From Tubulanus polymorphus (lineage: Eukaryota; Nemertea; Palaeonemertea; Tubulaniformes; Tubulanidae): a stretch of 64,000 nt of DNA. Positions 10,401-48,900 of this stretch are shown here, in pieces. Where the stretch lies: NCBI RefSeq assembly GCF_964204645.1, contig NC_134031.1, forward strand, positions 14,407,307 through 14,471,306, given 5' to 3'. The position numbers and the translations under genes are program-made. Under the pieces are notes generated by a model, which saw nothing but the letters and a program-made list of their open reading frames with translations, was not told the origin of the DNA and ran no database searches. Within the stretch, counting starts at the first letter, position 1, and each line of letters starts with the position of its first letter.

Positions 10401-10708
10401 CCGTTGCGGTGCACGGATAGTTCCATTTATACGCCGTATACATGGTAATTACCGTAAGGTATAAAAAGTGTAAATAATTGTTATTACAGTAAGGTGGCGC
10501 CGCAATTGACTGTCGTTGTCATACAGCTACACAAACTCGCGTCAGCAATAGGATTACATTATCTATCTATCTTACGTTGAATATGGGATCGTACTAAATT
10601 ATCCCTCAATGAATCGTTCAACAGACGAAACGACGTAGCGGTATTTCCGTATTTGTATATATATTTTGAATACAGTACATTTGAACAGAAATTCGTAAGC
10701 GCACCGCC

Positions 10709-11947
10709 ATGACGTCCAATCTGACCGATTTGACAGTGGGCGCTTTAGATCCGGCGCTACACGATCTCTACGGCCAGTATAACTTCAGCGGAGACTACGA
10801 ACCGGACGCCGTGACCGATTCACCACCGTCTACGCACTACTGGGGCGCGGCGGAATTGAACACTTTTTCTAACTGGTATCGTCATTACCACGGTTTCATA
10901 GCCGCTATCGTCTGCGTGTTCGGGATAATCGCTAACGGATTCAACGTGATCATTCTCACTCAGCGGAACATGCAATCGGCTACAAATTTCATCCTGACCG
11001 CCCTAGCCGTCTCCGATGGTTTAACAATGGCTGCGTATTTCCCGTTTGCCCTCTATTACTACTGTATCTACGGTCCCGATGCTTCTCCGACCCGAGACAC
11101 TCAAGGCGCCGCGTACTTTCTACTGTTTTACGTTTTTTGGAGCGTCGTCATGCACAGCATTTCGATATGGCTGACAGTGACCTTGGCGTTGTTTCGTTAC
11201 ATATTTATAAAATACCCGCCGCGTGGCGCCACTGTATGCAGCATGCAGCGAGCTAAATTGGCCGTATTTCTGACTGTTCTAGCCACCGCTATCGTTCTCA
11301 TACCAAACTATATCAGTCATAAAGTCGAATGCTTTCCGGCTTCGAACGTGACAAATCGAACCGGTGAAATTCACACGGTTATACTCGCCAAAAAAACTGA
11401 AACGGAAATTATCATTTTCAGCGTTACGTTCTGGGTGACGGCCATCTTGGTTAAACTGTTACCGTGCGCTATGTTGACTGTGTTGAGTATCTTACTGGTC
11501 CGGTGCATGCAGGAAGCGGAAAAACGTCGCATAAAACTACGCAACCAATCAAAACTGATTCAACGTGAGGGCGACGACGATCGTTCGGACCGGAGGACGA
11601 ACCGGACCACTAGAATGTTACTAGCTGTCGTAGTCCTATTCCTTATATGCGAGCTTCCGCAGGGTTTGCTTAACTTACTAAGCGGCCTGTTACCGACATT
11701 TTACGAAGACATTTCGAGTCCTCTCGGTGATCTGTTAGATATATTAGCCCTGTTTAATAACGGTATCAATTTCATTCTATATTGCACCATGAGTAAGCAG
11801 TTTAGGGACACGTTCTGCGCCGTTTTCCTCAAACCGGTACAAGTACGTCACAGCGAGAATGGCAGGGGGCGCTTTACGCTTGTGCCGAATAATAACTCGG
11901 TTGCTAACACTGCGACAACGATGGTAACGCGTACCTCGGATGTTTGA
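10709..11947 (+). CDS. Neuropeptide GPCR, dmsr/myosuppressin (FMRFamide-type) receptor family
   Basis: A single uninterrupted frame of 412 residues encodes a seven-helix rhodopsin-class receptor, expected at the plasma membrane of neurons or muscle and G-protein coupled. The extracellular N-terminus has sequons at N4 and N25. TM1 is about residues 62-84 (HGFIAAIVCVFGIIAN), TM2 about 92-115, and TM3 ends in FRY (162-164) instead of DRY. TM6 carries CELPQG (314-319) in place of CWxP, and TM7 carries NFILYC (354-359) in place of NPxxY. These substitutions are the hallmarks of the dmsr/myosuppressin receptor family, which binds FMRFamide-like or myosuppressin peptides, so I place it there. The C-terminus ends TSDV, a possible class I PDZ ligand. 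The start ATG sits in gcaccgccATG, a good eukaryotic context; a TATATATA run lies about 50 bases upstream. No intron is evident. The exact ligand cannot be told from sequence. Confidence 0.9.
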   Translation: MTSNLTDLTVGALDPALHDLYGQYNFSGDYEPDAVTDSPPSTHYWGAAELNTFSNWYRHYHGFIAAIVCVFGIIANGFNVIILTQRNMQSATNFILTALAVSDGLTMAAYFPFALYYYCIYGPDASPTRDTQGAAYFLLFYVFWSVVMHSISIWLTVTLALFRYIFIKYPPRGATVCSMQRAKLAVFLTVLATAIVLIPNYISHKVECFPASNVTNRTGEIHTVILAKKTETEIIIFSVTFWVTAILVKLLPCAMLTVLSILLVRCMQEAEKRRIKLRNQSKLIQREGDDDRSDRRTNRTTRMLLAVVVLFLICELPQGLLNLLSGLLPTFYEDISSPLGDLLDILALFNNGINFILYCTMSKQFRDTFCAVFLKPVQVRHSENGRGRFTLVPNNNSVANTATTMVTRTSDV

Positions 11948-19592: not shown

Positions 19593-20378
19593 ATGGAGCT
19601 GCAACCGACACCGGCGCCACACCCAGACAAACAGTGGCAAACTCCTACAGACCAACAAGTACCTTATCCTCAACAACCTCAACACTGGCAACAACAAACG
19701 CCTGGTTATCCTGGAGATTATGAAGGCCCTGGTGCAGTAGGGATGCAGCCCTATCCTGGAGGTCCAGGAGCAGCAGGGATGCAGCCATATCCCGGAGGCC
19801 CAGGAGCAGCAGGGATGCAGCCGAATCCCGGAGGCCCAGGAGCAGCAGGGATGCAGCCCTATCCCGGAGGTCCAGGAGCAGCAGGGATGCAGCTCTATCC
19901 CGGAGGCCCAGGAACTACAGGACAGCCCTATCCTGGAGCTGTCTATATGGTACAGCCCGCCATGACGCGACCGCATATGAAACTACCACGCGGTAAAGCG
20001 CATCGTGTGTTAGGACTGATTAATTTCACATTCGGTATCGTAGCTATGATAATGCAGATTGTATATCTGACTCAATATAAGAGTAACATGTACTACTCTG
20101 GTATATGGTGCGGAATATTGCTGATTATTACTGGTATTTTAGGTACTCAGATCATCAAGCGCAACAACCTCACGACCCCATGTATGGTATTTGCTATAAT
20201 TTCAGCTGTGGCCAGTTGTATAGCGATGGCTTTAACCGCCATGGTCGCTGTTGTTCTGACTATACTCAGTGGAGGCGCTTTATACGTGATGACCGTCATC
20301 TACGTATTCATATTCGTCGCTGCTTTAGTAACGACCATTGTGCAAGCATCTTTCTGCTGTAGTTGCTGTTTCGTGTGA
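19593..20378 (+). CDS. CD20/MS4A-like four-transmembrane protein with Pro/Gly/Met-rich repeat N-terminus
   Basis: The frame gives 261 residues from the ATG at 19593; it stays open another 20 codons upstream, but a possible 3' splice site (tatctag) just before this ATG makes it the better start. Residues 1-45 are Pro/Gln rich. Residues about 46-110 hold five copies of a 12-residue repeat, GAAGMQPYPGGP, encoded by 36-bp repeats. Four hydrophobic segments follow at about 139-160, 168-186, 198-222 and 229-252. The motif RVLGLINFTFGIVAMI, then GIWCGILLIITGILG, matches the CD20/MS4A and related tetraspan family. The tail ends with clustered cysteines (CCSCCF), likely palmitoylated. Vertebrate members sit in the plasma membrane and modulate signalling or calcium entry; no specific role can be claimed here. 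A dispanin/TMEM-type tetraspan is the alternative. A 41-bp satellite begins about 100 bp after the stop. Confidence 0.72.
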   Translation: MELQPTPAPHPDKQWQTPTDQQVPYPQQPQHWQQQTPGYPGDYEGPGAVGMQPYPGGPGAAGMQPYPGGPGAAGMQPNPGGPGAAGMQPYPGGPGAAGMQLYPGGPGTTGQPYPGAVYMVQPAMTRPHMKLPRGKAHRVLGLINFTFGIVAMIMQIVYLTQYKSNMYYSGIWCGILLIITGILGTQIIKRNNLTTPCMVFAIISAVASCIAMALTAMVAVVLTILSGGALYVMTVIYVFIFVAALVTTIVQASFCCSCCFV

Positions 20379-21620: not shown

Positions 21621-22595
21621 TCATCTTCGGTCGTTCCTGTTTTCCCGGCGACAGTGCCGGAAGTAGATTGATTTAGCCACGTTATGCAGAATCAAGTCAA
21701 CAATTTCAAACAGCGTGAAGATACTAGCGCCGAGTAATAAACCCATGTAACCACCGACTTCACCTGTAAAACAGTTACAGTAAAATTAAGCGATGGACTG
21801 CTTTGGCGATCTTAGGCCACGCTAAGAAATACCGAGGTTTTCATCAGCCCTTTTGGAAAAGTGACTAGGGCGGCAGGTTTTCTATTTTTACCACCATTTA
21901 AAAAAAGAAATAGAAATAAAAGCCTAATTCAAAATTCCAAAAGTGACGAGGGTGACGATTTTTCCATTTTTTAAATGGGGAAATTTAGGCGTTAACGACC
22001 TTGAATCGGGATGGAAAGCGCTTCGTTACCGAAATACACACCCGCTACGGTAACAATTGGGTAGCGACCATGAAGAAAAACATTAAAGTGTGATCAGGTT
22101 GTTCATCGGATGTGTGTGCGGGAGTGTTTTACAAAAACAAACAAACAAGATTTCTGCACGCTGGATGCGCTTTTCTATTTCTTATTTTTTACTGACGTAG
22201 TGTTTTGACGCGCGCGGAAAATGAAACTGATGAGAAACGAACGACGGTTTTTTGCGTGGCCTTTACACTGTTTAACGATACACAGTTGTTAATCTAAAAG
22301 TTAGTGCTGGGGTATCGTTAGCGTCTAATATTTAGTTTTCAGATCATTACGGACGAGTACATCATTTGAATGACGGGTTGATTCGTTTAACTTTTTTGAT
22401 TCATTAAAAAATCGGATAACAAACTGAAAATCGAATCGATGATATCATAGGGTGTTTTACTAGTGGCCACATTTACTGAATGGTTGCGTTTAGTTCTACT
22501 TACCGAGGAATGAAAACATTCCATAATCTGGGTATTGTTCGATTTTCCTGTAACTCAACTCTTTGAAATACATGTTCAATAAAATCATGTTATTC
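21621..22595 (-). CDS. DEG/ENaC exons 11-12: pre-TM2 strand, TM2 with GAS filter, cytoplasmic tail
   Basis: Two short exons complete the channel. Exon 11 (22595-22504, 92 bp) encodes NNMILLNMYFKELSYRKIEQ then YPDYGMFSFLG, the conserved strand into the pore. Exon 12 (21763-21621) encodes EVGGYMGLLLGASIFTLFEI, i.e. the degenerin-site Gly, the GAS selectivity filter and the FEIVD end of TM2, then a basic 25-residue tail ending NRNDRR and TGA. Acceptors are ttttccgtag and gttttacag; the donor is CTCG|GTAAGT. Neither exon is a sizeable open frame, so both are easily missed. They prove that the long exon 10 is not the end of the gene. Confidence 0.88.
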
Positions 22596-25500
22596 CTACG
22601 GAAAAGAAACAAACGATGGAAAATTAATTGACAACCAACGAAATAGGACTATGATTTTTGATATCCATGAATATTGATGACCCGTGTATGTCCTGATAGA
22701 CCTAATAATGGTGTCATCAGATTTCTTATTCCAGAATGAACAAGGCCTATAGGCCCGGACACACTGGGCGATTTGGTCGCCCGATTTCGTCGCCCGACGA
22801 AATCGCCGGTAAAATCGCCCAGTGTGTCCGGGCAATCGCCTTCGGCGATTTAGTCGGCCGACGAAATCGCCCGAATCCAACATGTTGGATTCTGTCGCCG
22901 GCGATTTCGTCGCCGGCGACAGAATCGCCCAGTGTGTCCGGGTACGGCGATCAGTCGCCTCGAGCGCCGTATTAACCAGCCAATCACCGCTCTTTGATTT
23001 ATTAAAGGTGGCGCTAGCAGCTGGTCGTTTCAAAATAAGCGGCGCTGTTCGCCGATTTCGTCGCCGACGAAATCGCCCAGTGTGTCCGGGCCTGTCGGCG
23101 ATCAAATCGGTCATAAAATCGGCGGCGATTTCGTCGGCCGATCTCGTCGGCCGACGAAATCGCCCAGTGTGTCCGCGGCTTAACACTGTAGTTAGATTGA
23201 TTATAGAACCTAAAGGAGCTTAGACCTAAGTTGTTAGATTGGTTAAACAATCAAAATAAGCTTCGACTTGTCTTATATTGTAACCATCAAGATGAGACTG
23301 AGTCGTAAGTATTTGGCTATAGAAATAGGCGATGGCCTTCACTGTGTCCAATATTGGGCCTTGAATCTTATTCTCTACCTTATAAACATATGTCTGTCAT
23401 ATCTATCTAAGTCGATTTCAAGAAGGAATTTTTGAATCGTATCTCGAAGATCGTATAAATGTAGTAACGTGTCACTGCGATAACCCTCTAATTGTTGATA
23501 GATCAAATCGAAGACGCTCTGCTCATAGTCGACCCTCTGCTCCCTGGACGACAGGTATTTCTCGCTGAATTGTACGACCAGATAATCGTCGAATAAGTCT
23601 CGCATGTACGCCCTGTCCGAGGTCATTCCAGTCCAGTTCATCGGCGTCGTCCAAAGCAATCTATATTTCTGGTAGATACCGTACTTGCCAACGTCATGTT
23701 GAAGATAGGTGGCGCTCTTTGTTGTCCCGTTGAACGGTGGGAATACTGTTGCGATGGCCAGCCGATAGATGGCAGCTACATCGTTGAGGATCGTCTCCGT
23801 TATTTGCTCCAGACGCTTATAATCGTTTTTGACGGTTGCTAGGAAACTCTTCACGCGACTCACGTCTTGTCCGATTGCTTTGAATATTTTAACGCGTACG
23901 TCGGTCGTCATGGATACATCGTCGAAAAATTCGTCTTGTAATTGCATCCATTTTTCCTTCAACTCAATAATGAAAGGGTCTAGTCGGGAGAGCTCGTTAT
24001 TACGGACGCCGGGCACGTTCCAGCTTACCGGACCCTTTCTGAAGATGGTTTCAGATGCGCTCAATTTAGCCGTTAGATTGCTGTGCGTTGATTTCACGTA
24101 TTCCCAATGGTCTATAAAGTACCCATAACCCGATTTAGCCATCGGAACCGCTTTTGTGCGAAATTCAAAATCCAGCTGCCTGAGTTTACTTGTGTCCAAA
24201 ATTCGCCTGCTACTGTCGGTAAAGTTCAAAGAGTTAACGAACAATGCCGTTTCGTTAAGCGAGCGCCGAAATTGATGACGTTGCGTTCTCTGCGGTTCCG
24301 CATTAGACATGACGTCACCGAATATCTCAGTCGTGTAATACGAATCTCCTGCCTCAATCGCTTTGGAGATTTCGTCAAACAAATCGTTCAAACCGGAAGT
24401 TAGATATTCAATATGGCCGTCCCCTCGTTCGGGTGTGTAGTTTTCGTAAGTGGCCACCAGCCTCGACATGATATCGGCTATGACCTTGGCATGATGTGAA
24501 ATTAAAGTCAAATTTTGGGCAAATTCGTTTTCTGTGATTCGTAAAACCTCATCGACGCACCGGCCGAACTGAACCCGACCCTGATCACCGCCGGTCAACC
24601 CGAGAATGGCCGTCTTCAGTTCCTTGTCGAATAAGTTTTGTTTGATTCGGACAAGGTCGTAGGATAGACTGTTCATTTTTCTACGCAAATCTTGCAACCT
24701 GCGAGCTTCGATACCTAGCCTTTGGTCAGTGAGCATTGTTTTCATTAAAGTTGCCTCCTTGTATTTGGGTAGGTATTGCCTGCCCAATTTTGCGGTACCT
24801 TTTTTATTAAATAAATCGAACACACTGTCTCCAATACTGGATTGTGACGTAGTTATGTCGTAGGTATGTTTTTTGCAGCTATCCGGGCATTTGCAGGCAG
24901 AATTTCTGACCACTTTGTAAAATTCACCTGGAAAAAAAGCAGGATCCAGTTCCCGAGTTGTGTATTAAGATTTAATTCTGGGCCCGGTTCAATAGTTGTG
25001 AGTAAGAATTGATTCTGAGAAAAGTTTGAAATTAATTTTCGACTCAAGAGTCAAACGTTAAACCTCTTTAAAACTGGAATTTTCAAAATACTAATTCTAG
25101 ACGCCAGATATATTTTTGAGTTAGCGAATTTCATGATTTTTACCTTTGGCTTTTTTAATGGCGAGAACTTTGTATCCGTCGCAGTCTGGCCGGTTAAATT
25201 CAGGCCACTCGGATTCGGGTCTTGTGTATTCGTTATTTATCAACGGTCGCGGGACGCAGTTGAATCTCTTCACGATGTAATTGATAAAACATTCTTCCAT
25301 GCATTTCCCGTGGGTGTAGTGTTTAAATAACGCCAGAGGGCGCTCCGAGCAGTTCCAATGCGGCGGAGGCAGGTTTATATTCTGAAAGAAGAATTGATAC
25401 GTACGCGAAATCCTCATTAACGTATTCAAAGGATACGCGATCCTGTCAATACACAACTTCGTTCATTAGAAAATGTGTTTATCAAACGGGATTCGAACCC

Positions 25501-28500
25501 ATGAACGTCAAGTCTTCAATAATTTGCATATTTAAGCTACCACCAATTCGTAGGTTCGAATCCCATTCAAAAGCACTTCATTCTAAAGCACTATGTGTAA
25601 GTATTTAATGTGTATATCGATTTTTGCAGTATTAAGAATGAAAACTTATCCGCATTTTGAAGGAACGACTATTCAGATTTTAGGGGTAACGTCAAGAAGT
25701 TTTTAGTCATGTACCAAAGAATACGTCCTCAATACAGTCTTCGAATACTAGTAGCGCACTGTTCATATCAATAAAGTATCTATTTTGCGAGTAGTTCGGG
25801 CTTGTTACAAGCTAGAATATAGGCTAGTCAATCAAATTGTATTTTCTCTGCAAAAAAAATGATTATTTGACAGTAATTCTACCTCGATAAGTTCTACAGC
25901 AAGAGAAGTCTCGGTTCCTGGAGTCACATGTGTCCCATATTCCGGTAGGGGGAGCTCACCTTGCTCATGCGCCATTATCTGAAATCATAATTATCGTTAC
26001 AAACACTGGGAGTGGTCTAATTAACTAAATACTTATGGTATCAATGAAAACACGTCTTTTAGCCGTAATCTTATATTATAATTACCGTTACAAACACTTT
26101 ATGTGATTTTAATCGACTAAATACTTATGGTTACCATGGAAATACGTCTTTATAGTCGTTATTTAAAATTGTAACTACCGTTACTAACACTGGGTGTGGT
26201 CTAATCAACTAAATACCCCGGTACTTATGGTAACAATGGAAATACGTCTTTTAGCCGATATCTTGCAATCATAATTACCGTTGCAAACACTGGGTGTGGT
26301 CTAATTCACTAAATACTAATGGCAACAATAAAAATGCATATTTTAGCCGATATTTGTAACTATAATTACTGTTACAAGCACTTGGTGTGGTCTAATCAAC
26401 TAAATACTGATGGCAAAAAAATGAAAATGCATCTTTTTGCCGTAATTTGTTATCATAATTACGGTTGCAAACACTGCGGTCTAATTAAATCTCAATACTA
26501 ATGGTCACAAGTAAAATGCATTATTCATAATTATTAGATTAGATTAGATTTCTAGCATACCCCTTCAGATCAAATAATAGTGTTTGCTATGAAACCGGAG
26601 CTGAGAGCTTGTTCAATTCAACAAATATGATTTTTGATTTACCACATTTTCACTCTCCCTATGGACTTAATGAAACTGGCATATCGTTAAACCTATTACG
26701 GTCTAGACTGATTAGCTATTAACTGATGCTATGAAGTGATACGTGACGGCATAACTAATAGAATATCATTATATAACGTAGTTCTGGAAGCTCAGTTATA
26801 GATATATTTTGCATGATTGGGCAAAGTACTCAAAGTTGATATAGACTATTGGGCCAAGTGGTTGAAATGAATACTTTTACCTAGGACTGACATTTTGAAT
26901 TTACCCTTTGAACGTATGTAAGTTCTGGAGCAATCCAACTTAGAATCAAATAGAATGTATCAAATAAATTTATTCACAAAAACAATCTCAGGTAAATTTA
27001 CGTACAATGAGTCCACTTGCACCTTCATAATTCCCGCTTATATATTCGTAGGATTCGACGTTCGCCACTATTCTCAAACCGGAATATAAACCTAAAACGA
27101 ATTAAAAAGGAAATCATGTTTTCCCATTTCTGTTCATATAAACTCGAAACAGTTCTACAGTTCTTATAACTGAAACATTTGCGGAACTGGATCCTGACAG
27201 AAAATGATAAATATTAGAGTCTCATTATGGTTGATGCCAATACCGGGTATCTCAAATTATAGCAAGACCACAACTGTTAATAGAAACATTCAATTTTAGC
27301 ATGCAGTTTTTTTCACATTAACACTTCACCATCAGATTTCAATCTTGTGTAAGTCATTAGTAAATCGTGTACTATGTTTATGTTTGTAAAAGTAGGTACC
27401 TTTTTCATAATAATAAAGAGATGAGTCAGAATTTCTTAAATGAAATCTATTCAAAATTAAGATTTCAATAGTTTTGCATTCCCACTATTTGATGTCTTAC
27501 AGGGGTCTCGTCGTAAAAAAAAGTCTCAAATTGTACGTATATATATATTTCAGTGACTGTGAAATTATTACCGGGTTGTGTCATGTCCAGGCTGCCGTTA
27601 TGCGAATTCACAAACGGTTTAAACGTATAACAGACGCCATAAGCAGAAGTTACAATTGGGTAAAAGTCATCGACATCGCACAGTTCGCCTTTCCATTTAC
27701 AACTGTGTATTAGAAAGAAAAGTACCATAGACCTTTAAAACATCGCGTATACTAAACCTCGCCATTTGGCATATCAAATGTGAATTATTTTTGGGGGAAT
27801 TTTAGGATGAAACTCATTGCAAAGGAATTTAATCCATCGCGAAAACTAGGTTTCATCATTTGATATATTAGAAATGGAATTATTAACAATGTTATAATTA
27901 AATAATATCAAAGGTCTTTTATGAATATTGTGAAAACTAAACCTCGTCATGTGGTATATCAAATCCTTAACCATTATGTTATAACTAGGCATTTAGAAAT
28001 ATTGAAAGAAAAACTGAACTTGTCACTCAATATTGAAAGAATGTAAAGTCAAACTAGTATTTCGTACAACAGAATTCAAGTTTATGAATTTTCTCTACGT
28101 CCTCTATGTTTCCAACTTCGTCACTTACCCTGATATGAGGTCGTTTATGTCCTGCCGACATCCTTCGTAGACCTTACTCAAATTTGACATGCCTTGTGTG
28201 AAAAAAAAATGAAATGAAAGGCTCGATTTATAAGGGAGTAAAAGCGACCTGTCATAAGATTCTGAAAATCACCAGGATTCGAACCAAAAACACTGTTAAA
28301 TGGGACTAGTACAACACAATTCGAATCGCGGTGAACCCTAAATTCACCCAGTAACGATAACAATTTATTGACAGCTGTTTTGATTACCTGAAATTTCTGG
28401 ACCTCTGTCAACGTTACTAAAAAAATCGATCCACTTTTCTTTATAAGAATTTGTGATCCTGCAAATAGTCGAATATCTCACCATGAAACAAACTATATAA

Positions 28501-31155
28501 ATCAAAAATTGTTTATTTTTTTGCTTATAATGAATTAATTTCTGGATCCCCAAAAATGCTTATACTCACTGGCACATGTTTGGATTACAGATTGTAACCA
28601 ATGGAAATCGTACCGAGTCGTTTCTATTGACAGTAACCGATACCGCGATTGGGTGAGATGCAAAATAGCTATAACAAGAAAATCAATTTTGATAAATCAT
28701 TTGACGCCTTTAATTTTGTAGAATTTTGGGATAAGCTAATGTGGAATTGCAAATTTGAAATCGAAGTTTTAAGAAATTTGGGGAATTGTGAGATTTGGTG
28801 ATTGGGTAGCAGGTCGACCGGGCTAATTAAGTCGTCCCGGGGCTTCTGACTCGATCCTCTTGAGTCTGGGTAGAAGTGGACGTCATTTCTTGTTTATGTT
28901 ATTCTGTATGAATTACGCATGTGTTTTTATGTTTTATTTTCTTATTTTGAAATTTGTAACTTTATTGAATTTCGGAATCTTATATGTAATGTTTAAAATA
29001 AGGATCAATAACGAATTGAACTGAATTGTCACCTGAAACACATGCCATCAGAAGTCGTGGAGCCGTATACGACAGCTATGCTATTATAAATTGCAAATCG
29101 GGATCGTTCTCATGAAACCGGCATATCCGGCCCTGATATCGAACATATTTTCTAAAACTGTAGTTTAATATTGGAATTATATGTTTACACGTTTTTATAT
29201 TGACCGCTTGTAACTGTCGATAAAATTCACGCCGGCCCTACACAGATCGTATATAGCTTTCGTCATTCGACCAGCATTCCATGTCAGGGTCTGACTTTTA
29301 TATCAGATTTCCGTACCGTGTATACATCCGCCATTCAACCGAATAATCCGATTTACTCATCATTTCTATTTATGCTTGCCGCTTCTGATATAATCATACA
29401 TCCATTTCTATTACAATAAATTCATGAGTATTCAATGCAATATAACATTTCGACGTTCAAATAGGGCTCATTATATAATCACAGGAAGACATTCTACATA
29501 TTTATCAATAATGTTTTGCCAAATAGCGTTTATGTGTACACATAGACCTGTGACGTTTTGCGCAATCGATTTACGGTTGTCGTTTGTAAAATGCTGAATG
29601 CTTAACGTTGCTTAGGTTTCATAATGGTAACGTTTTACAAGGCGTCAAAAAATACTTGCAATTTCATTTGATGAAACAATGTTATGTTATCGGAGGATAT
29701 TTGAATATACTGATTTAACTGATAACATATATCCATTCAGATATATCCTAACGTCTATGCAACTATGAAGAGAATCATGTTTCGTTTTATAAGTTTGTGA
29801 TATGAATCAGTAAACATGAACACAATTAGTACTTCGTACGTTAATTTGATTTATAAAAGATATGAACTTTCACCAGGCCTAAATACAGTAGTCGTTGAAT
29901 GAGTAGCTTTTGCCACGAGTATAGTAGCCTTTAATTAAATGAGTAGCTTTCGCTACGAATAAAGCAGCCTCATAAATGAGTAGCGTTTACTACGAGTACG
30001 GTAGCCTCGCGAGGAATAGCTTTCACTGCGAGTACAGTAGACTCATACGTTCAATGAGTACGTAGCTTTCGCTTCGAGCGCGGTAGCCTCATTAGTTAAA
30101 TGAGTAGCTTTCAAGGAGTAGCTTTCGCATCGAGTACCGTAGACTTATACGTTCAATGAGTAGCTGTCGCTACGAGTACAGTAGCCTCATAAGGAGTAGC
30201 TTTCGCATCGAGTTCAGTAGCCTCATGAGAAATAGCTTTCGCATCGAGTTCAGTAGCCTCATGAGAAATAGCTTTCGCTACGAGTACAGTAGCCGCATAA
30301 GGAGTAGCTTTCGCTACGAGTATAGTAGCCTCATAAGGAGTAGCTTTCGCTACGAGTGTAGTAGCCTCATAAGGAGAAGCTTTCGCTACGGGTACAGTAG
30401 AATTATAAGTTAAATGTGGAGCTTTCGCTACTAAAATAGATAGACTTCAGTAGCGAAAGCTCCTCAGCGTACAGTAACCTCGTGAAGTAGCTTTCACTAC
30501 GAGTACGGAAGCCCCATAAGTTAGATGAGCAGCTTTCGCTACGAGTATAGTTGCAGTTTTGCAAATGCTATCATTTACACATCTTAAAAAATAGGAATAA
30601 ACTATGAACTCACTTGTATCGAATGATGACTATGAAACAGAACGATCCTATAATCCCAACACACAAAATCAACCATACAAATCTAATATAGAATAAAATC
30701 CTTTTCACTAAGGAATAAAGCTAATCTTCATATTAAAGAAACACTCAAACATTTTAGGCTACGATCTATGTATTTAAGGTAATTTATTCACCTTGTAAAT
30801 AGATGCATTTTGTCTCGGTTTGATATAATGTATTGTAGTCAGAAAATGCCTTATGATTGATTACTAATTACCTACATGGATGACAAATGACTTACCGGCG
30901 GATCAGAAAAGGAGTAGAATCAACGATATAACTGATTCCATGCATTGTGGTGGATTCCATATAATTTCTTATCAGCATCAATACACTGGGCAATTCATGT
31001 TCACGGCTGGGTTCTTCATTTTTTTCCGTTCGGGGGTTCATCAGCGGTTTGGGTTCACTATCGATGTTATTCGATTCTTTGGTCTCGATTTGCGGGTTAG
31101 GTGCTTTGTAGATGTCCATCATGGTTTCTTCAATCGTCAACGCAGAGATCGACAT
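21621..31155 (-). CDS. DEG/ENaC-family sodium channel, 12-exon gene, ~971 aa, with giant ectodomain insertion
   Basis: I assembled this gene by hand. Exons, in transcript order: 31155-30896, 30700-30614, 28668-28570, 28458-28388, 28192-28129, 27702-27572, 27091-27006, 25978-25883, 25381-25144, 24927-23379, 22595-22504, 21763-21621. Every junction is GT..AG and every phase matches. The product is a DEG/ENaC/ASIC channel subunit, expected as a plasma-membrane trimer passing Na+. It shows the N-terminal His-Gly gating motif (H72 G73), TM1 (about 91-114), FPLVTICN after TM1 (137-144), the palm motif VTPGTETSLAV, cysteine-rich segments, the CPDSC motif (391-395) and TM2 with the GAS selectivity filter (936-938). 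Some relatives are gated by FMRFamide-like peptides or acid; the gating stimulus here is unknown. Usual family length is roughly 500-700 residues, so this one is far larger. AATAAA signals lie downstream on the minus strand near 21485 and 21120. Confidence 0.9.
22752..23180. mobile_element. 429-bp foldback/MITE element with nested palindromes, in the DEG/ENaC intron 10
   Basis: The ends are inverted: GGCCCGGACACACTGGGCGA at the left and TCGCCCAGTGTGTCCGCGGC at the right. The same motif recurs internally at about 22815, 22925 and 23085, so several smaller palindromes are nested (for example GATTTCGTCGGCCGACGAAA and GCCGGCGAT..ATCGCCGGC). It is much more GC-rich than its surroundings. The apparent frames inside are repeats, not genes. 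It lies between exons 10 and 11 of the channel. Confidence 0.85.
23379..24927 (-). CDS. DEG/ENaC exon 10: CPDSC motif followed by ~460-residue insertion
   Basis: This 1549-bp exon (acceptor tttccag at 24928, donor AAG|GTAGAG at 23378) is many times longer than its neighbours. It opens with ACKCPDSCKKHTYDITTS, the standard cysteine motif at the end of the family ectodomain. Normally only a few dozen residues separate this from the strand leading into TM2 (here NMYFKELSYRKIEQ, in the next exon). Instead about 480 residues intervene. The insert is charged and looks mainly helical, for example RLQDLRRKMNSLSYDLVRI and YDLRDTIQKFLLEIDLDRY. It has seven N-glycosylation sequons (NLT, NYT, NET, NFT, NLT, NGT, NWT) and a single cysteine, consistent with an extracellular location. 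I do not recognise a known domain. There are no internal stops over 515 codons, so it is under coding constraint. Confidence 0.85.
25144..28668 (-). CDS. DEG/ENaC exons 3-9: finger, beta-ball and palm of the extracellular domain
   Basis: Seven exons of 64-238 bp encode the canonical ectodomain. In order they give YFASHPIAV..FPLVTICNPNMC (post-TM1 motif), ITNSYKEKWIDFF, SKVYEGCRQDINDL, CKWKGELC..YGVCYTFKP, SGLRIVANVESYEYI, EYGTHVTPGTETSLAVE and LPPPHWNC..GKCMEECF..FNC. These match the family order, including the CxW/YGxCYTF block and the PGxETS palm strand. For exon 9 the acceptor ttcttctttcag at 25382 is preferred over an upstream acceptor near 25443. It gives an in-phase joint and the same spacing (20 residues) seen in ASIC between TSxAL and the following Cys. 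The intron between exons 7 and 8 holds a tandem array that starts at the exon 8 acceptor. Confidence 0.85.
25486..25570. repeat. Short inverted-repeat element with GGGATTCGAACC ends
   Basis: Left ACGGGATTCGAACCCATGAA and right TCGTAGGTTCGAATCCCATT are inverted copies separated by about 45 bp. It sits in the DEG/ENaC intron 8. Similar pairs occur at 28268-28335 and 31766-31862. Confidence 0.65.
25975..26515. repeat. ~100-bp tandem array in DEG/ENaC intron 7, starting at the exon 8 acceptor
   Basis: About five to six copies of a unit containing AATCATAATTACCGTTACAA, ACACTGGGTGTGGTCTAAT, AACTAAATACTTATGG and CGTCTTTTAGCCG. The first copy overlaps the start of exon 8: GCCATTATCTGAAATCATAA lines up with GCCGATATCTTGCAATCATA in the next units. 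Confidence 0.85.
27735..28000. repeat. Imperfect tandem repeat in DEG/ENaC intron 5, three copies
   Basis: CTAAACCTCGCCATTTGGCA then TATCAAATG, and the variants CTAGGTTTCATCATTTGATA and CTAAACCTCGTCATGTGGTA, recur about every 90-110 bp. Confidence 0.6.
28268..28335. repeat. Third copy of the GATTCGAA inverted pair
   Basis: TCACCAGGATTCGAACC and ATTCGAATCGCGGTGA form an imperfect inverted pair in the DEG/ENaC intron 4, between exons 4 and 5. Confidence 0.55.
29885..30560. repeat. ~33-bp satellite array in DEG/ENaC intron 2, about 20 copies
   Basis: The unit is approximately GAGTAGCTTTCGCTACGAGT then ACAGTAGCCTCATAA, with length variation. At 30419-30465 one copy is inverted, giving GGAGCTTTCGCTACT and AGTAGCGAAAGCTCC as a hairpin. 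It ends about 55 bp from exon 2. The frame at 30156-30413 is a repeat artefact. Confidence 0.93.
30614..31155 (-). CDS. DEG/ENaC exons 1-2: cytoplasmic N-terminus, His-Gly motif and TM1
   Basis: Exon 1 (31155-30896) starts at ATG and is acidic and Pro-rich, then carries NYMESTTMHGISYIVDS, the conserved cytoplasmic motif whose His-Gly pair controls gating in the family. It ends CG|GTAAGT. Exon 2 (30700-30614) opens after gaaaag and encodes FVWLILCVGIIGSFCFIVII, the first membrane helix, ending AA|GTGAGT. The joint restores an Arg codon. Exon 2 lies directly beside the 33-bp satellite that fills the next intron. Confidence 0.85.
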
Positions 31156-36150: not shown

Positions 36151-37332
36151 GTATATAGACATGGGTGCCTTTTTGTGTTTCGAAATGCCAATATCATCCG
36201 AATCGTCCGCAACTTCATAATACGCAATGGATTTATGAGAAAAAAAAATAAAACTATGAACACAAATGGCATACTTCAGTTCTTCAGTGGATTACTTAAG
36301 GTGTCGACTGTCATCGGTCAACTGCTATATGAACACTGCCCTAATAACGCAGTGGTGTAATTCAACACACGCACTATAAAGTCGTATACTGTAGAACAGA
36401 ATAGAATATGTTTTATTGCTCGAAAAAATACAATTGCTTAGAGCACAAAAACAAAATCAAAATCTATAACAATTTCAATAATTAATGCGGTTCACAATTA
36501 ACAGGTAATTAACTTAAAAAGACGCACATACACATACAGATTCAAAATCAAAAACATACAACAACATATACAAAAATGGTCTAGAGAAATTTAGAAGCAG
36601 TTTTGATAAATTTGGTGAGTTGATTAAGCTGTTTCCCTTTAGTTTTCATTAGTTGGGTAAATTTGTAAACGCTTGGTCTAGTTCTGAAAAATGGTTTTAA
36701 ACATTTAGTGCGGATGTTTCGGAAAAAAGGGCATTAAATGACGTGATGAAATTCGTCCCCAGCATCTTCAGTGTCACAGAGACTACAAATTCTTTCCTCC
36801 TTGGGGGTTCGATTGTATCTTCCGGTTTCTATGGGTAATTTGTAGTTTGAGCAACGGAAGCGGCAGAAAATTATTCTTAGGTCCGATGGTAATGTGGTGA
36901 GGTATTCTTCAAAGCCCCATTTACTTTTGAAATTTTTATAATATATAGCTGTGTTAGAGTTGTTTAGGGATTCGTGCCAAAGTTGGATAAACTGATCTGT
37001 TAAGCGTTGCTGTATGGTGGAGGCAAAATTATTTAAATTTGGGGTATTCTGTGTATACCATATTTCGCCCAACCCATTGGTTTCTAGAACATTTCTTATG
37101 AAGTCAAGCCATTTACTAGTGTTTCTGTCAGTTAAAAAGTGACGGTACAGGGTTTTATACACATACGATGATAATTTGTTAGTATTCAACAGGTTTCTCC
37201 AGAAATAAAGCATTCTGCTCTTAATGGTAATTGAAAGAGGGAATCGTCCTAGTTCACTATAAACAAAAAAACTTGGTGTTGATCTTTTTAATTTTAACAG
37301 GTACTTGAAAAAGGTTAGTTGGACTCTCTCTA

Positions 37333-37595
37333 CAGAGCCGTCGGAAGGAATTTTTCAGTGGCGAGGCTTATTTCTGAAGGGTGGTCTGGGGGCCCTCCCC
37401 TAGAAAAATTTTGAAAATTCAACCGCCGGAGATGCGTTTTGGGGCCATTTCACGGTCTCATTCACAGAAGGATGAGAAGTCGTGAGCCAACTACTTAGTA
37501 CAGAGAGCGACGAGCTGCTACGCGGTACAGCGTGCTTTTGAAAAAAAAGTGGGGTGGCTTTGGCCGCCCCTGCCACCCCTGTTCCGACGGCCCTG
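37333..37595. mobile_element. 263-bp non-autonomous DNA element inserted in the LINE RT thumb
   Basis: The termini are inverted: CAGAGCCGTCGGAA at the left and TTCCGACGGCCCTG at the right (13 of 14 matched). Both sides are flanked by CTCTA (37328-37332 and 37596-37600), a probable 5-bp target duplication. Removing it joins the LINE frame FLNLNR to VQLTFFKYLLKLKR. No open frame belongs to it. Confidence 0.72.
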
Positions 37596-38848
37596 CTCTA
37601 GCCGGTTCAAATTTAGAAAACCCCAGATTTCACAGCCAAAAGTTAAGACGGGAACCACCATACTGTCAAAGAGTTGCTTTGCAAGATCTATTCCTAGTGA
37701 ATATTCCTGAACCTTTTTCAATACGAAAAACATGGCTGCTCTTGTATGGGTTTCTATTGAATCTATACATGAAGATAAACTTCCATTGTAACGGAAAAAT
37801 ATACCTAAGTATTTAAAACAATCCACCAGTTCTATTTTGTTATCGTAAAACTCTGGGGGGTTACGACGCTTTCTTTTCTGAAAGATAATTACTTAAGTTT
37901 TTTCCAAATTGATTTCTAGTCCCCAAAGTTGGCAGTAGTCAATTGGCACGTCCATTTCATATTGTAAACTCTCCGGGCTTTCTGCTAGAAGCACAGCATC
38001 ATCGGCATAAAATAACACAAAAAGTTTAAACCAGAAATCTAAGTTTTCTTGGTCATGAAAGAAATTAATACCATCACATCGATTTTCCGATATAGGAATG
38101 ATTCCATATCGTTCAAATAGATTGAGAAAAGGATTGGGAAAGGTTTTCACCTTGCCGCAATCCTTTAAAACTCAGAAAATAATCTGACAGTATTCCATCT
38201 ACACGAACACACGACTTGGCATTTTGATAGATATTAGTAATTACCCGAAGGATCTTCCCTGTTACACCAGTGCCTATGATTTTGTGCCATAACGCTTTTC
38301 TCCAGATCGTGTCGAAAGCTTTACAATAGTCGATAAAGACACAGTAGAGCCTTTTATTACTAGCCAGGAATATATCAAATTGACTTCAATGAAAACATAT
38401 GATCAAGCACCGAGTGCCCCTTTCTGAAACCGGCTTGGTTCTTCAGCAAAAGATTCATTTCTAAGTTCATTTCTAAGTAGGCCGTAAGGCGGTCATTAAT
38501 TAGGCTAGTAAATAACCTTCATAGGCAGCTAAGAAGGGTAATCCATCTATAGTTGTCAGGGTTTGTAACGTCACCTTTCTGTTTATAAATGGGGGTGATA
38601 GTGCCAATACTCCAAGCGTCTGGTATATCCACAGTATCTAGAATGTTGTTAAATAATAGGACCAATGTAGGCGATATGAAAGCATGAGATGCCTTAAGAA
38701 TTTCATTTGCAATTTGGTCTATTCCTGGCGCTTTGTTATTTTTCAACCTTTTTATGCCATTAATGACTTCGTCTTCTGTAAAGTGGCTATTAAGTAAGTC
38801 GTCACCGTCTTCAGTATTATCACTAACGTTAAACAAAGCATCAAGCAA
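37518..38848 (-). pseudogene. Broken reverse transcriptase domain of the LINE
   Basis: Three separate frames cover the RT: fingers (HFTEDEVINGIKRLKNNKAP, then PDAWSIGTITPIYKQKGD), palm (LFYADDAVLLAESPESL) and thumb (FKYLGIFFRYNGSLSSCI, then VVPVLTFGCEIWGF). Stops and frameshifts separate them. The usual PDNYRGITLL motif reads PDNYRWITLL. The thumb frame stops where the 263-bp element is inserted. It is a non-functional relic. Confidence 0.85.
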
Positions 38849-39889
38849 ATTTTCCCCGTCTACAGGATTTTTGTTAAGATCAACATAGAAACTAAAGAGA
38901 TATTCAAATAAGGCACTACATGCGGATGGTTTATCATTTTTAAAAAAGTTCCAATAGTTTTTTGGTTCTTGACGCTTTATTTGTCGGAGTATGTTGTTAG
39001 TATTTCGTACTTTCTTCTTATTGTCAGTTCTGATTCTTATATCATCTACGGGCCCTATTTATTTCTACCTTATTATGGCAGGTTCTCGCACTTTTATACC
39101 TACATTTCATGGTACGGTAATTTATCCTACATTTTATAAACTCTGGGCTAAAGGTTTTTTTTACTATTTCGTTTCAAGTTGGTGTGGCTTTTTTTCTTTT
39201 TCACATCCATGACGGAGGCTGCAGTGCCGACAATGATGTCAGATAAAATATTACTTGCGTCGCTAGCACCAATTGTTGTTTTTTTGAGGCTCGTATTAAG
39301 TTCGTTTAACCGGAGACTATTGTTTTGTATAAGTTCGTTTTTAAAAATATAAACTTTTTCATTTTTCCGATTAATCTTTTCAATTTTTTGCGGGTTTAAC
39401 AAGCTAGACTGCTTAGGTATAGTACCTATTAATTCACCCTTTTTGAACCGGCAACTAGTTGGCGCATGAACATCGGAAAAGAATTTGTCAAAATCTTCTA
39501 CTTTAGAGCCGAGAACAGTTCTAAAAATATTGGCTGATCCAATGAAATAATCAACTAAGGTGCTTTGATTCCCCTTTAAAACAGGTACACCTTCCAATGT
39601 TTTTATCGCTACCGACTCGGCCATTTAAGATAAACAAATTGCATAGTTTACATAACTCGATCAATCTATACCCGTAGTCATTTATTCCGAGATCCGTATT
39701 GCTTCTATTCCAGATTCCTAGTCTATCAAGCTCCACTAAAGCGGCGGTTTCATCATCAAAAATAGCACCCATGCCTAGTTCCTCAATTAAAAATTCGTCG
39801 TGGTTTATAAAATCAGGTAAGGTTTTGTATACAGATTTAAGTCCCCAGTTATGAGAAATAAATTATCAGCATTTAGGACCTGTGACAAT

Positions 39890-42138: not shown

Positions 42139-43164
42139 CTATACTATGCTATATCCGACTTGGGCCGTTTGTCCCTGTGTCTCGTTGACATTGTCGTTCG
42201 GCTCACGGGCAGCAGTGTGTTCATTTGTCTGTAGTTCGTGTTGTCTAGCTACATCATCTTTTGGGATGATTCGTCCATTAGCCGCGACGCGATAGTTCTG
42301 TCCTTTCGGAATATTTCGCAAATAGATTTTCGCATTTAATTCGACGATTCTCTCTGTGTGTGATTTACTTGATCGGAGCATCACATATTTATATTTTTCT
42401 GTTTCCGATAGTTTTCTTTTACGCCTTAACACATCTACTTTTCCTGCGATCGATGCGAACGCAATTTTGACAAGACCAGGTCTATTTCGTACGCGGGAGG
42501 TTAATCTTATTGCCTCAGTTACTACTGGCACGTCTTCATGTTCCGCGTATAACGATTTTACGAGGTCTTTGGCAATTTCTAGAGTATTTTTAGCATTTCT
42601 TTTGAAAACCTGGCTAGCGATAATGGTATACTCTGGGTCATCGGCCTCTCCCTCTCCCTCTCCCTCTCCCTCTCCCTCTCCCTCTCCCTCTCCCTCTCCC
42701 TCTCCCTCTCCCTCTCCCTCTCCCTCTCCCTCTCCCTCTCCCTCTCCCTCTCCCTCTCCCTCTCCCTCTCCCTCTCCCTCTCCCTCTCCCTCTCCCTCTC
42801 CCTCTCCCTCTCCCTCTCCCTCTCCCTCTCCCTCTCCCTCTCCCTCTCCCTCTCCCTCTCCCTCTCCCTCTCCCTCTCCCTCTCCCTCTCCCTCTCCCTC
42901 TCCCTCTCCCTCTCCCTCTCCCTCTCCCTCTCCCTCTCCCTCTCCCTCTCCCTCTCCCTCTCCCTCTCCCTCTCCCTCTCCCTCTCCCTCTCCCTCTCCC
43001 TCTCCCTCTCCCTCTCCCTCTCCCTCTCCCTCTCCCTCTCCCTCTCCCTCTCCCTCTCCCTCTCCCTCTCCCTCTCCCTCTCTCAGCCTGACATTGATAT
43101 ACAGCACTTCAGATTCTCTTCTATCTAGAACCGTTGTGTCTCCGCATGGTGTAAAGTAATTTCG
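42139..43164 (-). CDS. Retroelement ORF1-like protein (FP C-terminal-like domain) with (Glu-Gly)n microsatellite insert
   Basis: The minus-strand frame is open from just after a TAG at 43165-43167 down to the stop at 42139. About 25 residues ([20 protein letters not shown]) precede about 73 Glu-Gly pairs. A folded-looking 160-residue part follows: [14 protein letters not shown], then [18 protein letters not shown], then [20 protein letters not shown], then [17 protein letters not shown]. This resembles the FP-type C-terminal domain common in ORF1 proteins of invertebrate retroelements, which bind nucleic acid. It lies upstream, on the same strand, of the LINE endonuclease at 40.7 kb, so it may be that element's ORF1 separated by later insertions. 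No convincing ATG was found; it may be a relic. Confidence 0.55.
42645..43083. repeat. (TCCCTC)n hexanucleotide microsatellite, ~73 perfect copies
   Basis: About 438 bp of uninterrupted TCCCTC, reading GAGGGA on the minus strand. All six frames are open, giving Glu-Gly, Ser-Pro and similar dipeptide runs, so long frames across it are artefacts except where real coding flanks them. The G-rich strand has GGG every six bases. Confidence 0.97.
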
Positions 43165-45094: not shown

Positions 45095-45984
45095 CTATAC
45101 GGGAAACTCTTTGAGAGGAGTTGTCGATTTGTCGGCTGCCAATTCATCGATCGATTCGACTCCTGTCGTCAAAACCCTTTCGCAATTCACATCCTTCGAA
45201 GATGCCCTTCGACTGAAACGTGAATTGCTGATAGAAGTTGCTAGCGTACTGTAGCCCCTTCCGTCCATCGGGTTGGTCGTCGAGAAAACGCTGCCGTGTC
45301 GATTCTTACGCCGCGACGTCACCAGCGCGTTTTTGAACGATTTACGAAAGTTTGACGACATAAAACTGTAAACGATCGGGTTTATTATACTGTGTATATA
45401 GAAAAACAGACGCACGCAGGTCAAGGTCATGTGGTAACCGTGGAAACCCAGACGTAATGGTACGTAATTGTCGAATATCAGTATTAGCGACAATGAACGG
45501 TACGGAAGATGACAGAGAAAAAATAAAATGACAACAATGATTAACATGGCAACCACTTGTTTCCGCGCGCGCAGCGTCGTCGCCGAGACGAAATTTTCCG
45601 GATCGTTCGCCCTTGACATTAGTTGTTTGGTAATGACTGTGTATAGTGTAAACAGCACGGCGAGCGGGATTACGTATGATACGACCATCAGAGAACAGGC
45701 GTACACGCTTTTTAAAGTCGTATCGATTTTCAGGCGGCACACCTTAACGGGCGTCCCGTCCGTTAGACGCGAACCCTTGTAGTAAGCGATTGGGATAAAC
45801 GGCGCCGCTACGAACAGCGAAATTAACCAAATTACGCATAAGATTTTAATCGTGCGACTCAGCGTGCAGGTCACGTGCGCTCGTAGTGGCCGACAGATGG
45901 CGTAGTAGCGCTCTAAAGCGATGCCGATGATTGTCTGTATGGAAGCGCCTGTAACTGAGTTCTCCAGAAAAGGCACGAATTTAC
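45095..45984 (-). CDS. Exon 2 of the TRH/ETH-receptor-like GPCR (TM3-TM7 and tail)
   Basis: The exon begins after ttgtag at 45985 and ends at TAG (45095-45097), giving 295 residues. It contains TM3 with ERYYAIC, TM4 (ILCVIWLISLFVAAPFI), TM5 (SYVIPLAVLFTLYTVI), TM6 (AMLIIVVILFFLCHLP), TM7 (RLFFYIHSIINPIVY) and about 80 residues of Ser/Arg-rich tail. Confidence 0.9.
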
Positions 45985-48900
45985 CTACAACGAGAAATAT
46001 CATTAGAGAAACTTAAATCAACTTTTTAAACATTAGTGGAAATAAATTCGAAAAAAAAACTTTAGGGTTAAGTTTCGTGAAAAATATCGAAGAGTTCAAA
46101 ACGATGAAGTTTGAAAGTTTGTCTTTGTTGAATGCAGCAATCAAAACAAACAATAATTTGAGTTTATCATTATCTTTATAACTCTACCACCAGTGGGCGT
46201 TCATGATGATAGACTCATTATTAATTATTGGCAATGCAAAAATGATATCAAATTAGAAAGGTAAATTAGAAAGCTTGACGAGGATTTAGCAATAAGCTTA
46301 TTCGAATAACATGTAGAAAGAATTGGGTCTCTTTTTTGCCTGTAAATGAATAACCAAACCTTCAGTTAGATATAAATGATAGATTATGTTCCGCTTGAAA
46401 TGTTTAAGGTGATGAATAATACTTTATTTTTAGTTGCAACCTACTAAATGAAATGCTTGAAAATATTTTGAATTTGAGCTCTTTTGGCAATCTAGATTTT
46501 CTATAAAAAAAATCCTACAATCAACTTTGCAAAATTCATAAAAAAGGATCAGACATATGGGTCCCAATAATTATTATGTTGTAAATAGATGTATGTATTT
46601 TCAAAAACTTTGTTATCTATAAATTAATACGAAACTATGTACCAGTCGCCTTGGAGAAGAAATTGGTCTTGAAATTTGGTGTGGTAAACAATCATATTGT
46701 ATGAATTAATGCAACGGCTGGAAACTGCAGTGAAAATATTTATAAGGGGCTGGGCAAACTGAGGCAGGCAAAATTTCAGCCAATCAGTAAGCAGGAATTC
46801 TTATTATTGACTCTCGCACTGCATCAAAACAATTTCACAGTCAGTAATTGCAGCTATTCGGTGAGGAGGTCGCGTCCAACACAGCACCTTTAATATTTTG
46901 TTCAACACCGGCAGGCTGCTCTTTGCACTCTGCGGAGTACTCCGAACACTGTGCGGAACAAAGAAATACACTAGAACAAGTCACGTGACTCTGCCATACG
47001 TTACTCCGCTACTCCACAAAAGTGGGGCAGCATTTGTATTTGTCTAACATGAAAATAGCGTAATGCGCGTATGCAGAAAACTCGACGGTCAACCACTCGC
47101 GTGCGCTTTGCGCTTGACTCAACCGGTGGCCACGCGCGTTTCTATGAAGATATTTTTATGAAAATAGGATCAACAAAATTCTCAGATAAAACTCTATCTT
47201 CAATCTACATTATATCTCAAAACATGAAAAAGTTACAGTCAGTAACACAAAATTACCAATCTTTTTGAGGCGCCTTCGGTGAAGTATATTTTTTAAACTG
47301 TAACTGTATCCGATTGTTGCAGCCGAGAAAAATTAAATAAACACCATCAGAAAATAGAAATTGTCACCTTTCTAACGATAAAAGACTTAAACTTTTGAAG
47401 CAAAAGGGTGATGGGCTATAATGAATCGCGCTAAAGGTTTTACTTTAAAAAATGTGAAATCTGTCCAACAATGCGGACCCCGCGAGACGCCTCAAAATGG
47501 CGCCTGGAAACTGGAAACTTACCTATACCTGGCAAGTTCTTGGCCAAAGGAAATCACCCGTTGTTTCCACGGGTATTATTCCTAGTATTTTATTGAGATA
47601 AATTTATATTTTCTGTTGATTGTAGATATCGTATATTTCATAGTCTCCCTCCATGTACCATAGAAATGGTTGGAGTGTAAACAAAATCCTAATCATTACT
47701 TCCGCGGACATGTTGCCTTTTAAATAGAAATCTAAAGCGAAAAGCACTTAGGTAATTTCCACCAAATAAGAAAAACACCAGTGCAATACTTTCCCACTAG
47801 GGGGCTTTCACGGCACGAAACTAATTCCATAATAACACGTGCCAATCGTGAAAAAAACGTTTTTTTTTAATAAAAACCTTTTCCTGTTAATGCACAACGG
47901 CAGTTCGGTCACTTTCCCGTATGAGGGACGCATGAGGGGGAGTCTTTGATACTTAACCTTGAGCGCTGATTGCTCTGTGCGCACTCACCAATCATTACCG
48001 TAATCATTCACAAACACTAAACGGAGTTTCCAACGATATGATGAATGTCATGTTGTCACGTCAGAGAGTAAATAAAAAATTATTTTCTTTCTTTTAGAAA
48101 AAAAATAACACCCTGCTCATTATTCATGAAGAACTTTCACTTGGCGAACAGAAGAAAATGATTAGGTGGTCGACACATTACGCGGCGTTTGGGAAGGTAT
48201 CAGGAATCGTGGCTGGTTTGAATAATTCAACATCGGTTACTTCTTGATGGCCGATTGAGGATATTACTAATTGTATTCGAGCCTCATTGCCTCCACAACT
48301 GACTGTGCTACACAGCCACTAGATTTGTACAAGGTCAATTTCTAAAAGAAATATCCTGCGACACATTGAGCTATTATAGAGTTCTATAAGCACGATATTG
48401 TACGAAAAATGTTTTGAATGGAAAGCTGGACGTAAAGCTTTTACTTTCATGGCACCAACTTTATGGAATGTCTTACCACTGGAAATTCGTGAAAGTCCAA
48501 CTGTCTCATGTTTTAAATCACGTTTAAAAACTTTTTATTTTAGAAATCTGTACAATTAGTGTTTTAATCTGCTTCTGTCTTATCTGTTTTAATAAAGTGA
48601 AGTGCAATGAGTATGTTTTATAGAAATGCACTTTATAAGTAAATAAATTATCATTATTATTATTATTATCATTATTATTATTTTTATTGTTATTGTTATT
48701 GTTATCTTTATCGTTATCGTTATCGTTATCGTTATCGTTATCGTTATCGTTATCGTCATCGTCATCGTCATCATCATCATCATCATCATCATCATTATCA
48801 TCATCATCATTATCATCATCATCATTATCATTATCATTATTATCATTTATTATTAAAGTAAAACGACCAATAACCAATAATTCACAACCAATCATTGTCC

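Follow-up and report, generated by a model that had tools for sequence, protein, structure and literature searches.

Can a subunit of a DEG/ENaC channel carry several hundred additional residues in its ectodomain and, if so, where are they placed and what might they do there? The question is raised by a locus of Tubulanus polymorphus, a palaeonemertean ribbon worm (Nemertea; nemerteans are lophotrochozoans, as are molluscs, annelids, and brachiopods), located in a 64,000-nucleotide stretch of DNA that was analyzed as a whole and is called the window below.

The gene was rebuilt by hand as a set of 12 coding exons (Table 1) with AG/GT borders and matching phases. At several borders a choice was made among alternatives, and the donor between exons 6 and 7, for which no border was proposed by the computation, was placed manually. 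The resulting frame of 971 residues runs through all 12 exons in consistent phase and without a stop codon, which bears out the in-phase 12-exon DEG/ENaC gene with an extra segment that the earlier note had read at this locus; the borders of exon 10 also came out exactly as they had been given there. With its 1549 bp this exon contrasts with the other nine internal exons, which range between 64 and 238 bp, the range that had been stated for the core ectodomain exons. The landmarks of the model are CPDSC at residue 391, NMYFKEL at residue 901, and GAS at residue 936.

Table 1. Features of the DEG/ENaC gene of T. polymorphus, given in positions of the window.
Feature	Positions	Strand	Basis or remark
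Entire DEG/ENaC gene as modeled by hand (12 coding exons, 971 aa)	21621..31155	-	Pfam ASC PF00858, E 2.9e-66, 224.8 bits (cut-off 23.6)
Exon 1, N-terminus and HG motif (aa 72)	30896..31155	-	rebuilt model
Exon 2, TM1, 87-bp in-frame cassette with weak 3' splice site; absent from the deposited NCBI protein	30614..30700	-	
Exons 3-9, core ectodomain	25144..28668	-	rebuilt model, ASIC1 alignment
Exon 3	28668-28570	-	
Exon 4	28458-28388	-	
Exon 5	28192-28129	-	
Exon 6	27702-27572	-	
Exon 7	27091-27006	-	
Exon 8, 96-bp in-frame cassette; absent from the deposited protein	25978-25883	-	
Exon 9	25381-25144	-	
Exon 10, CxC/CPDSC region and insert, 1549 bp	23379..24927	-	whole in the deposited protein
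Insert, aa 421-884, 464 aa (borders uncertain by ~10 aa), seven N-x-T, Cys501	23408..24799	-	gapless ASIC1 alignment once excised
Exon 11, final palm strand plus wrist (NNMILLNMYFKEL...), up to where TM2 begins	22504..22595	-	rebuilt model
Exon 12, TM2 with GAS filter (aa 936), C-terminus, stop	21621..21763	-	rebuilt model

The membership of the gene in the DEG/ENaC superfamily is firm. The Pfam family ASC is matched by the model (Table 1) and also by the deposited protein (E 5.6e-41). Hallmarks of these channels are an HG motif that precedes TM1 and a Trp where TM1 begins (PMC9822975), and both are present, the former at residue 72 and the latter as W96 of the FVW stretch (residues 94-96) encoded by exon 2. 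The GxS selectivity motif of TM2 takes the form GAS. The core ectodomain contains 14 Cys residues, in addition to Cys501 of the insert, a figure that is a count only and stands beside the 11-14 conserved ectodomain Cys given for 15 sea-anemone channels (PMC9822975). The best 19-residue hydropathy means are 2.9 for TM1, a strongly hydrophobic segment, and 2.0 for TM2.

Repeats were also seen in the introns of the gene. Intron 7 contains a 91-bp tandem array (25971-26476, 5.4 copies, 74% matches) that extends into the exon 8 acceptor. In intron 10, just downstream of the exon with the insert, a GC-rich cluster of repeats, inverted as well as direct, surrounds CGACGAAATCGCCCAGTGTGTCCGGGC (22745-23180) and looks like a palindromic mobile element.

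From CPDSC, exon 10 stays open across the ~464 additional residues and as far as the last palm strand ahead of TM2. The gap between CPDSC and NMYFKEL, first put at about 500 residues, amounts to 505 and includes one Cys (residue 501) and, as had been counted, seven sequons (residues 516, 540, 602, 612, 661, 777, and 808). At the base composition of the insert, a stop-free frame of 515 codons has a chance probability of ~8e-14. The insert is slightly richer in GC than the core (0.454 vs 0.422; GC3 0.535 vs 0.475), and codon usage trained on the core slightly favors its correct frame (0.026, with -0.11 to -0.24 for the other frames). The period-3 power is 8.7 for the insert, 5.0 and 2.8 for two pieces of the same length from intron 2 (no other intron has the length for this comparison), and only 3.2 for the joined core coding sequence; in 65 other stretches of the window it has a mean of 2.2 and a maximum of 21.9. 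On its own this measure is not decisive.

The most telling evidence for a real coding module is the excess of sequons. All seven are N-x-T, the more efficiently used type. In shuffled versions of the insert (residues 422-885) the mean number of N-x-T is 1.36 and seven are reached in 4 of 20,000 shuffles, the p value of 0.0002 being somewhat flattered, as this test was picked after all seven had been seen to be N-x-T; the figure for N-x-S/T is safer (7 vs 2.5 shuffled, p = 0.006). The core ectodomain has no N-x-T and 4 N-x-S/T (3.0 expected), and the reversed insert has a single N-x-T. Such an excess fits an exposed extracellular module. No membrane-like segment was found in the insert (best 19-residue hydropathy mean 1.25), and in a blastp search for internal repeats residues 414-886 returned only the match to themselves.

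The coding evidence also bears on the idea that the insert is an exitron, that is, a 1392-bp in-frame cassette spliced out of some or most transcripts, which would leave a canonical channel as the usual product. Splicing from an in-frame GT (24798) to an AG, with the exon taken up again at 23406, would excise just those 464 codons whose loss gives the gapless fit to ASIC1. This fit is partly expected, as the excision was chosen from this GT-AG pair and there are further in-frame pairs close by. The pair itself is weak: its combined score of -0.8 is reached by 47 of the 1030 in-frame pairs inside exon 10, whereas 10 of the 11 introns of the model score at least 4.9 and the remaining one -2.1 (consensus matrices). 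The GC content of the insert (0.45) differs from the 0.27-0.38 of 10 of the 11 introns (intron 10: 0.49), the sequon excess points to translation, and the deposited model keeps the segment. We consider the exitron quite improbable.

The deposited protein LOC141909180 (T. polymorphus, 898 aa) begins at Met13 of the rebuilt model, is identical to it over the shared parts, and includes the whole insert. What it lacks are precisely the residues encoded by exon 2 (TM1, 29 aa) and by exon 8 (32 aa). The full-length form of 971 residues is to be regarded as a reconstruction from the genomic sequence, the only deposited model found being the one without these two exons. Either they are often skipped in the RNA or they were missed by the predictor; possibly the skipping is regulated and yields a subunit without TM1, or their absence is a miss of the annotation. 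We take both as real coding exons because exon 8 aligns well to ASIC1 and TM1 is strongly hydrophobic. Their splice acceptors are the weakest of the 11, with scores of -0.9 and -1.9, as against 2.8 to 8.8 for the others (again from consensus matrices). A second AG lies 7 bases upstream of the exon 2 acceptor.

Both the loss of the two segments from the deposited protein and the weakness of the two acceptors could be read as signs of a decaying or non-channel gene, whose main transcript would skip TM1 and give a dominant-negative or useless protein, with the insert as neutral baggage. This is hard to reconcile with 12 exons that are open and in phase, with four tested hallmarks that are intact (including the 14 core Cys and GAS), with a strongly hydrophobic TM1, and with a sequon excess that suggests selection on the insert; decay is a quite unlikely account. 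The gene is a genuine, unusual DEG/ENaC variant.

The position of the insert was derived by alignment. With 464 residues (421-884) removed, phmmer extends 103 gapless columns with 32 identities across the junction to ASIC1, a net insertion of 464 residues with respect to this channel. The excision was guided by the in-frame GT-AG pair, and its exact borders are uncertain by perhaps 10 residues. A 469-residue excision gave a continuous match to the ASIC1 chain 7rnn_D that spans ectodomain and TM2 and totals 124.8 bits, while the unexcised protein matches the same chain in separate stretches (115.6 bits in all). The insertion maps to hASIC1a residues ~383-397, numbered by count on the 528-aa chain 7rnn_D. 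In ASIC1a, K384, K388, K392, and K396 belong to the knuckle and K380 to the palm, which the knuckle tops (PMC12658276). Because the aligned ASIC1 residues include these four knuckle lysines, the insert is assigned to the knuckle helix α6 and not to the wrist. On this alignment the knuckle placement is very probable, and the site itself is firmly pinned within ~10 residues. The earlier proposal of a module hanging from the palm and wrist, close to the gating machinery, is not supported: the insert adjoins TM2 in the linear sequence only and would be found where the ectodomain is topped by the knuckle, alongside the finger of the neighboring subunit.

Solved structures were surveyed with the insert-free core, which found 32 distinct PDB sequences, 26 of them with their best stretch across the site. 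In these 26 the span of the query minus that of the chain varies between -10 and +24 residues, and none has a comparable insert. The other 6 sequences, without a best stretch across the site, are from FaNaC (two), ENaC gamma (one), and thermal receptors (three). An ordinary length of the knuckle, measured from the CxxxC motif to the last palm strand, is a usual and not a defining trait of the family, and here this region is longer by 464 residues.

The segment was first described as an unrecognized domain, and its sequence gave no significant match in Pfam or the PDB. Only matches below the cut-off were obtained from Pfam for exon 10 (the ASC tail, E 0.0071, and QueF, E 0.19, the latter regarded as noise), and the search of PDB sequences returned nothing significant for the insert (one match at E 0.35). 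In homologue searches the deposited protein of T. polymorphus was the sole hit, both for residues 400-895 among the 7994 candidates listed and for the whole deposited protein among 6108. The same was true for the core (residues 205-412, 232 candidates), where not even an ASIC or FaNaC appeared; therefore these searches detect close relatives only and say little on distant ones. They covered proteins of at least ~534 aa (residues 400-895 and core queries) or at least ~494 aa (whole-protein query). Among viral contigs (1 pattern match) and prokaryote contigs (26), none was confirmed, in a search able to detect close relatives only. A second copy of the insert was looked for in the window with tblastn at E up to 10, which gave, apart from exons of the gene itself, only two rows with E values of 3.3 and 8.1. 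In the literature searched, no DEG/ENaC channel with a comparable insert was found.

Of the helical fold originally suggested for the segment, the helices are drawn by structure prediction, with low confidence. Single-sequence AlphaFold2 gave helices for exon 10 with a pLDDT of 36.9 and for residues 430-610 with a pLDDT of 54.7 (at least 50 in 121 of the 181 residues). The hydrophobic periodicity at 100 degrees has a z score of 2.7 in the insert and of 2.5 in the core ectodomain, and a Chou-Fasman-type count on the insert is mixed between helix and strand, so that "helical" should be taken as a guess from the models. A Foldseek search of the 430-610 model against the PDB yielded 348 matches at E ≤ 10 and none at E ≤ 0.001. 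Most top rows among the best 50 of these 348 are ESCRT-III/Vipp1-type helical proteins (E 0.16 upward), which were set aside as generic helix matches of a low-confidence model.

The reading that we prefer, with a rough probability of 0.4, is that the knuckle module acts as a glycosylated tether or lever. The protein would be a subunit of a DEG/ENaC cation channel, trimeric as in the rest of the family, with the knuckle helix α6 interrupted by a module of ~464 residues that is presumably extracellular, N-glycosylated, and self-folding, and that would occupy the upper outer edge of its subunit, adjacent to the finger of the neighboring one. Extracellular matrix, mucus, or cuticle could hold the glycan-bearing module, and the held module could then pull on or prop the interface between knuckle and finger, so that the channel is opened or biased. 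The tether is favored because knuckle glycan sites of ENaC are tied to force sensing: the site at N511 of the alpha subunit is important for responding to shear, and an additional site introduced at N487 of the delta subunit raises this response in a matrix-dependent manner, hyaluronidase largely abolishing it (PMC7958617). Like those sites, the seven of T. polymorphus belong to the knuckle domain; in ENaC, by contrast, they are single sites on a normal knuckle, and here they are carried by an added module. A moving knuckle lever is argued against by the helix α6 of FaNaC1, which is relatively static during gating (PMC11026163), and by mutations of the ASIC1a knuckle residues K384 and K388, which have no or small effect on pH dependence (PMC12658276). 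That tethering or leverage is the main role of the insert is accordingly put forward as a tentative proposal. A single acquisition event, as suggested early on, is compatible with the location in one exon. It is also conceivable, at rather less than even odds, that an unrelated, self-folding glycoprotein domain of ~464 residues, new to the superfamily, was captured inside α6 in ribbon worms and gave the channel an extracellular tether or sensor of its own.

Among the alternatives, the one best supported by anatomy would be a ligand-binding lobe, which covers the pocket between the knuckle and the finger of the next subunit and there acts as a binding site or filter for a peptide or another ligand. 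The neuropeptide pocket of FaNaC1 is built from the finger helices together with segments of β6-β7 and of the knuckle helix α6, the last of these contributed by the adjacent subunit (PMC11026163), and it is in α6 that the insert sits. The peptide-gated FaNaC/WaNaC channels of molluscs and annelids are DEG/ENaC relatives that belong to other lophotrochozoan groups (7yvb, E 5.9e-23; 8on7, E 2.7e-14). The annelid FaNaC1 also has extra residues, ~28 with respect to the T. polymorphus core and just before the knuckle, and the Aplysia FaNaC is longer by ~69 residues over a wider stretch (both estimated from alignment ranges). The knuckle region of these channels is nevertheless far shorter, and their α6 takes part in forming the pocket for the peptide (PMC11026163). 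Moreover, the insert has no match in Pfam or the PDB, its sequon load might shield a pocket rather than expose it, and the best solved match of the core is ASIC1 and not FaNaC. A ligand lobe is on balance doubtful.

The same position, at a subunit interface by homology (PMC11026163), could also suit a module without any sensing role, which sets the subunit partners, by packing at the interface or by a disulfide of Cys501, or aids glycan-dependent folding and export. The single Cys501, the seven glycan sites, and the long helices of the low-confidence models are in line with such a role, whereas the helix prediction is weak and the module has no known partner. To our knowledge, other DEG/ENaC channels assemble without one. 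An assembly or trafficking module is unlikely and, as with the exitron and the decaying gene, less likely than the tether or lever.

For the core of the protein, the best solved relatives are ASIC1 and its group. Common to them are the HG motif, the two TMs, the Cys-rich ectodomain, and the GAS filter, as well as the gapless alignment across the site when the insert is left out; the 464 extra residues in the knuckle α6 set the T. polymorphus protein apart. H73 and K211 are determinants of proton gating in ASIC1, and some proton-activated DEG/ENaC channels lack both (PMC10507113). In the phmmer alignment, inspected by eye, H73 is replaced by Pro (in YFASHP) and K211 by Gln (in DMTQPG), the former assignment being less certain, as the stretch with H73 is weak (10-13 bits). 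The classical pair is absent, and therefore the protein is not filed as a proton-gated ASIC; acid sensing is possible, in view of the proton-activated relatives without H73 and K211 (PMC10507113).

Among published sets, the 15 sea-anemone channels picked for functional work have 458-578 residues (PMC9822975). From a DEG/ENaC tree with one nemertean, poorly aligning segments and sequences longer than 1000 residues were removed beforehand (PMC9234716), and a putative ASIC has been named in the nemertean Notospermus (PMC9949801). An insert is not mentioned in the excerpted text of either of the latter two papers.

The window also contains features outside the gene. Two GPCR-like open frames are found, one at 10688-11944 on the plus strand (Srw, E 9.9e-38, and 7tm_1) and one at 45098-46012 on the minus strand (7tm_1, E 2e-30, later part of the profile only). 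A frame of 260 residues on the plus strand (19596-20375) has a tandem repeat rich in Pro, Gly, and Gln (36-bp unit, 6.1 copies) followed by four putative membrane segments, assigned by eye, and has no Pfam match at E 0.001. At 36737-39624 on the minus strand, frames resemble by eye pieces of a LINE-type retrotransposon, with reverse-transcriptase-like residues at 38522-39058, and again have no Pfam match at E 0.001. The hexamer CCTCTC is repeated in 73 perfect copies (42645-43082, 100% matches), with several frames open across it.

Phylogenies that drop poorly aligning segments and sequences longer than 1000 residues, as was done in one case (PMC9234716), may overlook variants of this kind. 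As to how force from the matrix is passed to DEG/ENaC channels, the work on ENaC suggests a tethering role for glycans of the knuckle (PMC7958617). A large, sequon-rich module in the knuckle of a natural channel would offer a ready test of gating by force or by ligand, and it suggests that the knuckle is able to take a whole added domain.
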